From: an uncultured Flavobacteriaceae bacterium
Lineage (GTDB): Bacteria > Bacteroidota > Bacteroidia > Flavobacteriales > Flavobacteriaceae
Length of the DNA: 64,000 bases
Direction: 5' to 3'
Assembly: GCA_947497245.1 (NCBI GenBank)
Contig: CANMFO010000003.1
Coordinates: forward strand, 1-64,000
Of this stretch, positions 55,318-57,675 are shown in pieces; within the stretch, counting starts at the first letter, position 1; each line of letters opens with the position of its first letter. The notes under the pieces were generated by a model. The model saw nothing but the letters and a program-made list of their open reading frames with translations. It was not told the origin of the DNA and did not search any database. The position numbers and the translations under genes were made by a program.

Positions 55318-55530
55318 TCAGAACCCGCCCGCCAATCCCCCACAGATGCCCAGACTTATAAGAAGATAGACGCCTGCCAGGATATACAGAACCTTGGCCG
55401 CTTTTTTGTTGTTTTTTCGCAGTACAAGCCCGATGATCAAAAGTATTAGGGCCGGTCCGAACATTATAAGAAGGATGAGTATCAAGAGGCCTTCCAGGCC
55501 ACCGATTTCCAAAGGCAAGATCAAGTTCAT
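55318..55530 (-). CDS. Small two-helix membrane protein beside the radical SAM gene
   Basis: A 70-residue hydrophobic protein with two predicted helices: residues about 10-37 (GLEGLLILILLIMFGPALIL) and about 46-68 (VLYILAGVYLLISLGICGG), joined by a basic loop (LRKNNKKAAK) that should lie in the cytoplasm. Its ATG overlaps the radical SAM stop by 4 bp (ATGA), so it is translationally coupled. The function is unknown; coupling to a lipid-like radical SAM enzyme suggests a membrane subunit or anchor. Last gene of the trio, 85 bp before lepA. Confidence 0.75.
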   Translation of the reverse strand: MNLILPLEIGGLEGLLILILLIMFGPALILLIIGLVLRKNNKKAAKVLYILAGVYLLISLGICGGLAGGF

Positions 55531-56921
55531 AACATTTCAGTTTGAAGTTTTTGTAAATACGCTTTTTTTTCATCCCTATAGAACAGGTTCATGGTCTCGA
55601 ACGGAATGATCTGGTAATCCTTGTCCACAATGTGCACACAGGATTTTTTGATAGCCCGGACATCAAAGTTATGGGCGTCGATAAATTGCATGATGATGAT
55701 ACGGAACAAGTTGTCATAGCCCAGTTCGGGAGCATCGATCTCGGGCAGGCAGCACATAATGCTCTTTAGGTTTTCCGATGCTTTTTCCACGGAATTCCCG
55801 GTACTGAAGAGTTCGATCATTTTGCCGTGCAGTTCTTGATCTTGCTCGTATATGATAGTGTTCTTTCCCTCGTTCAACAGATCGTCCGGATTGATGTACC
55901 GCGTCAAGGGGGTCACCTCGTCTCCCAGTTTCAGGGCATACCCCATGACCAGGGCATCCGGATTGCAGGGCACGGGAATCAGGTCGTCCGCTTCGAAAAT
56001 GGGGGATTGCTCCAGGATGTTGCGCCGTACCTCCGTAAGGGTAATCCTGTTTTCGTCCGCTTCAAAATTTTCCAGCCGGCCCGCGATCTGGGTGGGCTGG
56101 AAGGTGACCCCGCGGACACACCGCTGTTTTAGCGCAAAATCGATGGTGGTCCCCATTTCGTGATCGTTCAGTCCTTTTTGAAGGGTCACCACCAAGGTAG
56201 TGGACAGGTTCAGCCGGTTCAGATGTGCCAAAGCGTTCAAACGGGTATCGGCCAAATCCGCACCCCGCAGGGTTTGCAGCACTTGGTTGTCCAGGGAATC
56301 GAACTGGAGATAAATCTCAAAATCAGGGGCATAGGTCGCCAACCTTTCCGCGAAGGCAAAGTCCTTGGCGATCTTTATCCCATTGGTATTGACCATCAAA
56401 TGTCGTATGGGCAGGGTCTTGGCATAGTCGAGGATATCGAAGAACCGGGGGTGTACGGTAGGTTCGCCCCCGCTGATCTGCACCACATCGGGTTCACCCT
56501 CGTTCCGGACGATGGCATCCAACATTTTTTTGATTTCGTCCAAAGTCCGATGCCTGCCGTAATGCGGGGAGGACGATGCATAACAAGTGGGGCAGGTGAG
56601 GTTGCACCGATCGGTCACCTCGACCACGGTCAAACAGGAATGCTGCTCGTGGTCCGGACAAAGGCCGCAATCATAAGGACAGCCGTAATGTGTTTTGGTG
56701 TTGAAGGTCTTGGGGTACTCCGAGGCCTTGTTGTAATTGCGGATGTTCTTATAGTAGGCCACGTCATCCGCGATCAACACCTTCGATCGCCCGTGTTCCC
56801 TACAGTTTTTGAGCATGTACACCTTGTCGTTTTCGAAGACGATCTTGGCATCGATCCGCCGCAAACATTCCGGGCAAAGGCTCAGGGTAAAATCATAATA
56901 GGTGTAGTTTCTGGCAGGCAT
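55527..56921 (-). CDS. Radical SAM protein, Tes/MJ0619 (COG1964)-like
   Basis: A 464-residue radical S-adenosylmethionine enzyme. The catalytic cluster motif is Cys106-x3-Cys110-x2-Cys113 (DRCNLTCPTC). Extra cysteines before it, at about 16, 19, 40, 81, 85, 88 and 96 (LCPECLRR, NCREHG, YGCPYDCGLCPDHEQHSC), match the pattern of the MJ0619/tetraether-lipid-synthase family. ISGGEPTVHPRFFDIL (GGE motif) and MVNTNGIKIA are also family-like. Archaeal Tes couples lipid tails through C-C bonds; bacterial members are little studied. The gene overlaps the Lgt-like gene by 29 bp and the small membrane gene by 4 bp, so it belongs to this putative lipid-modifying unit. Confidence 0.85.
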   Translation of the reverse strand: MPARNYTYYDFTLSLCPECLRRIDAKIVFENDKVYMLKNCREHGRSKVLIADDVAYYKNIRNYNKASEYPKTFNTKTHYGCPYDCGLCPDHEQHSCLTVVEVTDRCNLTCPTCYASSSPHYGRHRTLDEIKKMLDAIVRNEGEPDVVQISGGEPTVHPRFFDILDYAKTLPIRHLMVNTNGIKIAKDFAFAERLATYAPDFEIYLQFDSLDNQVLQTLRGADLADTRLNALAHLNRLNLSTTLVVTLQKGLNDHEMGTTIDFALKQRCVRGVTFQPTQIAGRLENFEADENRITLTEVRRNILEQSPIFEADDLIPVPCNPDALVMGYALKLGDEVTPLTRYINPDDLLNEGKNTIIYEQDQELHGKMIELFSTGNSVEKASENLKSIMCCLPEIDAPELGYDNLFRIIIMQFIDAHNFDVRAIKKSCVHIVDKDYQIIPFETMNLFYRDEKKAYLQKLQTEML

Positions 56922-57675
56922 GGGCAATCCCTTTTCTGAGCGTTTTTTGGTAGTATAGCAAACAAATTAAGCATAAATATTGGATGCTGCTCAACCCCAG
57001 GACCAAAAAAGTATTGGGCTTCAGGAATTCGATGCAGCACCGAAACGAAAAGTATGTAATCATAAAGATTTTGAAATACATGCCCTCCTCCAAACGGACC
57101 TTTCTGCTCTGAAGCTTTTTGACAAATAGGAACAAAAGCCCTAAAAAAACCAGCTCGTACAGAACGATGGGGTGCCTTAAAATGCCGTCCCCGAGGTCCA
57201 TCCCCAAGGGAGAAGTGGTTTCGGCACCATAGGTGAATTCGTTGACACCGGCCAGGAAGCAGCCGATACGGCCAATAAAGATGCCCCCGATGATGGGCAA
57301 CGTGAACAAATCACCGGAAGATTGCTTTTCCCCAATGATCTTTTTGACCCATTCTACCCCCAAAAGGCCTCCGAACAGTCCGCCCATGATCGTTTTATTG
57401 TTCAATATGGAGACCCAGCCCTGTGAATAGTGCAGCACGGGATTTTCCAGAAAAGCGACCAGGCGGGATAAGAACAGGGCCCCAAAAATGGCCCCTATGA
57501 TGATTGATAAACGGTTGTTCGAGGAAATGTTGTCCCTGTTTTTTTTTCTCAGGATGACATAGTACCGGAACCCTACAAAAAAGGCTAGATATTCCAATAC
57601 CAGGTGTATATTGACCTTGATGCCAAACAAAAAGGGTTCAAAGGGAAGGGGAAAGCCCAAAAGATAGTTGCTCAT
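56893..57675 (-). CDS. Prolipoprotein diacylglyceryl transferase (Lgt)-like membrane protein
   Basis: A 260-residue membrane protein with about seven helices related to Lgt, the enzyme that attaches diacylglycerol to the lipobox Cys. Segment KTIMGGLFGGLLGVEWVKK resembles the Lgt GG region; GIFIGRIGCFLAGVNEFTYG aligns with the signature GRIGNFxNxE, but Asn is replaced by Cys and the following residues differ, and RHPIVLYE is conserved. This is therefore a diverged paralogue, not the housekeeping Lgt, and may bind another lipid or protein substrate. First gene of the trio; its end overlaps the radical SAM gene by 29 bp. Confidence 0.8.
   Translation of the reverse strand: MSNYLLGFPLPFEPFLFGIKVNIHLVLEYLAFFVGFRYYVILRKKNRDNISSNNRLSIIIGAIFGALFLSRLVAFLENPVLHYSQGWVSILNNKTIMGGLFGGLLGVEWVKKIIGEKQSSGDLFTLPIIGGIFIGRIGCFLAGVNEFTYGAETTSPLGMDLGDGILRHPIVLYELVFLGLLFLFVKKLQSRKVRLEEGMYFKIFMITYFSFRCCIEFLKPNTFLVLGLSSIQYLCLICLLYYQKTLRKGIAHACQKLHLL

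Follow-up and report, generated by a model that had tools for sequence, protein, structure and literature searches.

Two described systems lie closest to the locus analysed here. The archaeal radical S-adenosylmethionine (SAM) enzyme Tes (MJ0619) couples lipid tails by radical chemistry; according to excerpts of PMC9433317, it binds two phospholipids, with one tail located at the radical source 5'-deoxyadenosine. Bacterial homologues of Tes are already in print, with their function given as unconfirmed in excerpts of PMC8941075, PMC9433317 and PMC11868695. Zeng et al. propose that they synthesise branched glycerol dialkyl glycerol tetraethers (brGDGTs; excerpt of PMC8941075), an excerpt of PMC11868695 describes their activity as unconfirmed, and one of PMC9433317 calls for their study. 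The second system is Lgt, which transfers diacylglycerol to protein. For the E. coli enzyme, excerpts of PMC4728403 place the active site on the periplasmic side, describe a second phospholipid site lined by R143, E202, Y235 and R239, and propose that the HGGL region holds the lipobox peptide. The window considered here is a stretch of 64,000 nucleotides from an uncultured Flavobacteriaceae bacterium (GenBank assembly GCA_947497245.1, contig CANMFO010000003.1, positions 1 to 64,000 of the forward strand). It encodes diverged relatives of both enzymes, together with a small membrane protein carrying a cysteine near its C-terminus. No description of such a cassette was found in open-access PubMed Central (PMC) text. 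The pairing of a Tes homologue with an Lgt paralogue and Cys-tailed small proteins is likewise absent from the papers found there, and the small protein as a candidate acceptor is the new point here.

All three genes lie on the minus strand. The Lgt paralogue, termed Lgt2, is encoded at 56893..57675 and is a polytopic membrane protein of 260 amino acids. It is followed by the radical SAM enzyme of the Tes superfamily (55527..56921, 464 amino acids, start ATG at 56921) and by a two-helix membrane protein of 70 amino acids (55318..55530), the proposed substrate. Lgt2 and the radical SAM gene overlap by 29 bp, and the radical SAM gene and the small gene by 4 bp. The first-pass annotation had described three leftward genes with these coordinates and overlaps, all of which were confirmed from the sequence. 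The trio is tentatively read as a protein-lipidation module, in which Lgt2 would attach diacylglyceryl to the small protein at its Cys and the lipid tail would be altered by the Tes-like enzyme, a reading that falls a little short of being probable.

The linkage between the two enzymes is conserved. In a phylum sample of 296 genomes, the window's own included, the radical SAM enzyme (at least 300 bits) is present in 24 genomes and Lgt2 (profile score of at least 150 bits) in 25, with 24 genomes carrying both; counts over related genomes such as these are not independent events. The radical SAM enzyme is matched at E≤1e-40 in 26 genomes, 24 of which reach at least 300 bits. The Lgt2 profile finds 39 genomes at E≤1e-15, 25 of them scoring at least 168 bits and 14 scoring at most 85.4. 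The surroundings of five of these 14 were read: four hold Lgt homologues without an adjoining radical SAM gene, and the fifth (G153) holds a diverged cassette. Two of the 24 genomes (G328 and G092) are exceptions in carrying the two genes on separate contigs, which indicates that the tie between them is more than neighbourhood. A set of 60 close genomes, again counting the window's own, includes 32 with a match to the radical SAM enzyme at E≤0.001, of which 15 score above 560 bits and the rest at most 41.3.

The same arrangement is seen in a scan of named genomes, all Bacteroidota as far as their titles tell, where the stretch read around the best 80 of 584 confirmed loci contains an Lgt2 match in 74 cases. 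After two duplicate pairs had been merged, 113 distinct loci with the radical SAM gene remained; within the stretch read, Lgt2 was found in 102, a Cys-tailed small protein in 102 and both in 96. Contig ends explain some of the misses, and the loci L052 and L053 proved complete once longer stretches (L139 and L140) were read. Conserved gene order, proposed in the first-pass annotation as a check, was recovered: wherever both genes were recognised in the stretch read (103 of 103 loci), Lgt2 is the upstream one on a shared strand, and in 69 it overlaps the radical SAM gene. This count used an Lgt2 threshold of 120-200 bits, with the two duplicate pairs unmerged and with L139 and L140 outside it. 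In these two more distant loci, the strand is again shared but the order is reversed, with the Lgt-like gene following the radical SAM gene. A chance overlap of unrelated genes is ruled out by the agreement of strand and order in 103 of 103 loci, notwithstanding the reversal in L139 and L140.

In the window, Cys63 is the only Cys of the small protein (...ISLGICGGLAGGF), with its codon at 55342..55344 on the minus strand, and is the proposed acceptor. Small open reading frames (ORFs) close to the radical SAM gene were gathered by their helices, as predicted from hydropathy, and regardless of Cys; the hydropathy rule is crude and the distance window fixed, so that some unrelated ORFs are counted and some true members missed. 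At 98 of 115 loci, the radical SAM stop is accompanied, at a distance of -10 to +300 bp, by the start of an ORF of 45-130 amino acids with at least two helices; in 96 of the 98, this ORF contains a Cys in the last 35 residues. Of 156 distinct small ORFs within the span of the cassette, 146 carry a Cys among their final 30 residues and 129 fit the motif [GSA]x[GSA]xC, compared with 31 and 8 of 61 control ORFs, which are other small ORFs with at least two helices at the same loci. When the controls are restricted to 20 likely genes, five contain the Cys and three the motif, and those three resemble missed cassette members.

Apart from this feature, the sequence of the small proteins drifts freely, and at least two families are present. 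The number of copies per locus is 1-3, with two Cys-tailed copies in 28 of 110 entries and three in 8. The motif is mostly [GS]-[FL]-[GS]-x-C, after which 3-22 residues remain (median 7). Across 148 distinct Cys windows, with those of M. branderi, Nonomuraea, G153, G178 and G213 counted in, G, S or A occupies position -4 in 138 and position -2 in 134. Lys and Arg average 2.8 over the 27 residues that precede the last helix and 0.2 after the Cys (131 proteins). On account of this pattern, the positive-inside rule predicts that the Cys is periplasmic, on the side of the Lgt active site. The first-pass annotation had cast the small protein as a membrane partner, but it looks more like a substrate, since the C-terminal Cys is its most widely kept feature. 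Lipoproteins with an N-terminal lipobox likewise carry their Cys where a transmembrane helix reaches the outer face, directly after small residues, whereas in the small proteins it is the last helix that bears the Cys, at its C-terminal end. Profiles built from the two families, A6 and A7, find relatives in 10 and 5 of the 296 genomes, respectively, and all 10 genomes of the former carry the radical SAM gene; one A7 match, in G195 about 5 kb from the locus, is without Cys, and another falls in G071, which has neither enzyme. The best Pfam match of the window's small protein is DUF4064 (PF13273; E=0.0006 over 43 residues), but membership was rejected at 20.4 bits against a cut-off of 32.1. NF058595 was also rejected as its family, with 13.8 bits against a cut-off of 37 and no match above the cut-off in 31 genomes. 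Judging by its title, "lipo-invert putative C-terminal anchoring domain", its curators may have had a similar C-terminal anchor in mind, a likeness of name only; the term was found in no paper of the open-access PMC text.

Lgt2 belongs to the Lgt fold and is diverged from ordinary Lgt. It scores 76.1 bits against PF01790 (cut-off 24.9) and 37.4 bits against the equivalog TIGR00544, below the cut-off of 118.9. In a fold search with its AlphaFold model (predicted local distance difference test, pLDDT, 92.8), a single PDB entry is matched at E≤0.001, namely 5azb, the E. coli Lgt (Foldseek E=1.4e-5, template modelling (TM) score 0.53). A plain second Lgt for ordinary lipoproteins is unlikely, as the TIGR00544 cut-off is missed and the same genome encodes two other Lgt genes that score higher. 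Conservation within the family was assessed on an alignment of 102 sequences (100 distinct), with E. coli numbering bridged via the host's own Lgt. R136, E174, Y208 and R212 are invariant in all 102 and correspond to R143, E202, Y235 and R239, which line the second phospholipid site. Arg136 falls within the Lgt signature, here GRIGCF (57256..57273, minus strand), in which Cys139 replaces N146, also in 102 of 102. A diverged Lgt paralogue with Cys in place of Asn had been proposed at first pass, and this description holds. The change is not special to the window protein, as Cys also replaces N146 in the Lgt of Leptospira and in MSMEG_5408, a second Lgt homologue of M. smegmatis which, compared by description only, shares both Y26H and N146C with Lgt2; H103 and N146 vary in other Lgt (excerpts of PMC13251419). 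The equivalent of G154 is kept, while the Lgt2 invariants E28, E108, K111 and T148 are W, L, A and I in the host's own Lgt. Judged from the alignment, the lipid side of the site is kept and the proposed acceptor side altered, as a new acceptor would require; loss of transfer is the alternative interpretation.

On sequence grounds, the radical SAM protein is a member of the Tes superfamily. It matches PF04055 (90 bits) and PF23545 (72 bits), and its sequence match to PDB entry 7tol (MJ0619/Tes) has E=3.3e-65. With its AlphaFold model, the best fold matches are 7tom and 7tol over the whole length (TM 0.76-0.78); the maturases SkfB and SuiB of ribosomally synthesised and post-translationally modified peptides (RiPPs) rank below, as does MoaA. 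The likeness to Tes suggested at first pass therefore stands at the level of the superfamily and fails for Tes itself: the NCBIfam scores are 286.1 bits for Tes (NF045702, cut-off 450) and 330.2 bits for TrsS (NF045646, cut-off 490), and identity as a true Tes or a true TrsS was rejected. TrsS, a (seleno)protein, gives the best NCBIfam score, over the full length, but the window's frame needs no selenocysteine codon and the partner genes differ. The cassette enzyme also differs from Tes in its linkage to Lgt2 and Cys-tailed proteins.

The cysteines of the enzyme resemble those of MJ0619. The radical SAM motif CX3CX2C is formed by C106, C110 and C113 (56583..56606, minus strand, assigned from sequence) and is preceded by exactly seven Cys (C16, C19, C40, C81, C85, C88 and C96), where the first-pass annotation had counted about seven. 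A rubredoxin-like site, C16-x2-C19-x20-C40-x2-H43 (56793..56876, minus strand), has the spacing of C9X2C12X20C33X2H36 in MJ0619; C16, C19 and C40 are kept in 21 of 21 rows and H43 in 20 of 21. C81, C85 and C88 together with a His (H91 or H94) are the probable ligands of [4Fe-4S]N (56649..56681, minus strand), aligning with C73, C77, C80 and a His of MJ0619. These three Cys are kept in the main Bacteroidota form and lost in the G153 and actinobacterial forms and in haloarchaeal homologues. The C-terminal auxiliary cluster region, M411 to C428 (55638..55691, minus strand), was located by alignment with 7tol. The model has a mean pLDDT of 73.9 and cluster loops below 50, and is thus too weak to place this cluster. 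Across 45 rows, C319, C390, C391 and C428 are invariant, and M411, aligned with Met439 of MJ0619, is nearly so.

A protein from another family of the same phylum (genome G124, L142:7864-9318) exceeds the Tes cut-off, with 493.8 against 450 bits, and by its sequence is a candidate true bacterial tetraether-type synthase. C319 and C390/C391 of the cassette enzyme are absent from it, and no Lgt2 was found beside it in the 17 kb read.

Diverged forms of the cassette occur in G153, within the window's own phylum, and in Actinomycetota. G153 has the order Lgt-like, small protein, radical SAM. Mycobacterium branderi has an Lgt-like gene, two small membrane proteins and a radical SAM gene, and Nonomuraea gerenzanensis a small protein, an Lgt-like gene and a radical SAM gene; a plasmid record of M. 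avium matches both enzymes by search alone. The spread outside Bacteroidota is taken from these three plasmid-collection records. In G178 and G213, an ICMT-like methyltransferase (PF04140) and a DUF4395 protein are encoded between the radical SAM gene and a downstream Lgt-like gene. As the order varies among diverged cassettes, the parts list is more constant than the order. In M. branderi, Nonomuraea, G153, G178 and G213, the small proteins are dissimilar in sequence and likewise end in a helix with a Cys. Phylogenetic analysis places 16 Lgt-partnered radical SAM rows on one side of a branch (support 93/88, recovered in 91% of bootstrap trees), and the 15 Lgt partners are likewise set to one side by a branch of their own tree (support 97/97); both trees are unrooted with long branches flagged, and L178 and L179, taken as ordinary Lgt, also read RxGC.

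The first-pass annotation had suggested a lipid or lipoprotein-tail modification pathway. This is still the most natural reading, given the conserved order, the Tes superfamily and the retained lipid-site arginines, with the chemistry argued from homology. In the proposed sequence of steps, the last helix of the tiny membrane protein would run from the cytoplasm to the periplasm and present its conserved Cys at the outer face. Lgt2 would bind a phospholipid in the retained second site and move the diacylglyceryl group onto this C-terminal Cys, as Lgt does with the N-terminal Cys of the lipobox. The lipid tail could then reach the bilayer centre, where the cytoplasmic Tes-like enzyme would take the alkyl tail into a hydrophobic pocket, abstract hydrogen at the tail end, and possibly join a second tail or edit it otherwise. 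The outcome would be a small protein with an unusual, perhaps membrane-spanning, lipid. In a bolder version, which is considered quite unlikely, the outer-face diacylglyceryl tail on the C-terminal Cys would be welded to an inner-leaflet lipid, so that in both Bacteroidota and Actinomycetota the protein would be held by a membrane-spanning lipid.

Several observations weigh against a lipidation module of this kind. The E. coli Lgt cannot do without Y26, H103 and N146 (excerpt of PMC13251419), and all three differ in Lgt2: His24 takes the place of Y26 and Cys139 that of N146, each in 102 of 102 sequences, and the H103 position is Met97 (M, V, I, L or A across the 102 rows). A weak pairwise alignment pairs a residue near F101 with H103 instead, which is also not His. 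MSMEG_5408, with its Y26H/N146C combination, is presumed to have low activity (excerpt of PMC13251419), and Lgt2 may be without any diacylglyceryl transfer. The lipobox [LVI][ASTVI][GAS]C fits 1 of 148 Cys windows, and the Cys of the small proteins is C-terminal. For the radical SAM enzyme, the tail as a target is suggested by analogy with Tes alone. The position of Tyr459 in MJ0619 is I431 in the window protein; Met439 and Tyr459 are described as completely conserved in 1000 archaeal homologues, with MJ0619 variants at both remaining active (excerpt of PMC9433317).

The same holds for parts of the evidence from the small proteins and from co-occurrence. Helices were assigned by plain hydropathy and topology by charge alone. 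The first, stricter motif G[FLYWVIM][GSA]xC fits 82 of 158 small ORFs and 2 of 61 controls. A Cys in the last 30 residues is missing from 10 of 164 small ORFs, one of which, in L096, is a clear paralogue with Phe. The alignments of A6 (22 rows; G34, I50 and C63 alone invariant) and A7 (24 rows, mean column identity 27%; G81 and C85 alone invariant) were assembled from rows picked with the Cys known and omit the L096 paralogue; the invariance of the Cys is therefore partly selection, and illustrates rather than tests its conservation. G071 (L200) has an orphan Cys-tailed small protein and no match to the radical SAM enzyme or Lgt2 in its genome. Conversely, G075 encodes Lgt2 (249 bits; L177:6653-7498) and is the one genome with it to have no radical SAM match at E≤1e-20. 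With the window's Lgt2 as the query against plasmid records, Persicobacter alone was recovered and no actinobacterial relative.

Other explanations have to be weighed on the same evidence. Synthesis of membrane lipids is unlikely, though to be taken seriously: the radical SAM enzyme would join phospholipids through their fatty tails into bola- or brGDGT-like lipids, the head would be prepared or trimmed by Lgt2, and the small proteins would serve as scaffold or membrane anchors. The homology to Tes, the proposal of Zeng et al. and the lipid site kept in Lgt2 all fit this explanation, but a scaffold leaves the single C-terminal Cys of dissimilar small proteins unexplained, and a bacterial protein that does exceed the Tes cut-off (L142) is without Lgt2 over the 17 kb read. 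A distinctly improbable alternative is a RiPP-like maturation, in which the radical SAM enzyme would modify the small protein at or near the Cys, for example with a thioether, and Lgt2 would help present it or lipidate it later. Such a pathway would account for the occurrence of quickly diverging small proteins beside a radical SAM gene, at some loci in two or three copies, and for the presence of SkfB and SuiB among the fold matches. However, the closest fold is that of the lipid enzyme Tes, the A6 and A7 alignments show no obvious leader-like or core-like region, and the Cys is predicted to lie across the membrane from the cytosolic Fe-S enzyme.

A role of the Cys as a redox or metal ligand, with the small proteins as subunits of a redox complex in the membrane, is very improbable; the single widely kept Cys in each protein and the multiple copies at some loci would suit such a role, while neither A6 nor A7 has a second invariant ligand (His or Cys) and the strict partnership with an Lgt paralogue would go unexplained. 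Cleavage before the Cys by signal peptidase II after lipidation, releasing a short lipopeptide of about 8 residues, agrees with the median of 7 residues after the Cys and is barely credible, given the lipobox fit in a single Cys window and the lack of such a gene among the recurrent neighbour clusters as recognised by eye, without a family search.

The protein-lipidation reading has the advantage that a fitting candidate acceptor, whose one Cys is widely kept, comes with the cassette itself; the activity of a Tes homologue and the acceptor of Lgt2 thereby become testable together. If the acceptor reading is true, a second route of protein diacylglycerylation would exist, directed at the C-terminal end of a helix and possibly combined with radical editing of the tail.

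Further observations concern individual loci and neighbours. In two Flavobacteriaceae, a small two-helix protein without Cys is encoded between the Lgt2 and radical SAM genes (L063:5594-5797 and L070:5623-5826). At L061:5144-5886 and L091:934-1671, the Lgt2 match is split over two overlapping or neighbouring frames, where a broken gene or an assembly fault is possible. G092, with its two enzymes on separate contigs, is a congener of G071. ICMT-like methyltransferase and DUF4395 genes lie inside the cassettes of two diverged genomes at L139:9383-10448 and L140:4784-5855. On plasmids of M. vanbaalenii and three haloarchaea (L056:7971-10339, L057:7893-10171, L202:3986-6149 and L203:3974-6084), a radical SAM gene is followed by a methyltransferase gene, with no Lgt gene there; the homologues of L056 (M. 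vanbaalenii) and L057 (a haloarchaeon) also have TrsS as their best NCBIfam match, below its cut-off. An anti-phage system was considered and rejected: PADLOC gives no specific model, since the core of the radical SAM enzyme matches two viperin models only in part, at 48 and 45 bits, and the other two proteins match none; in addition, some loci have housekeeping neighbours. Among the best 80 of 584 loci, a tRNA-dihydrouridine-synthase-like gene is found in 17 and a LepA-like gene in 16 (named from sequence), both of which are also present in the window.

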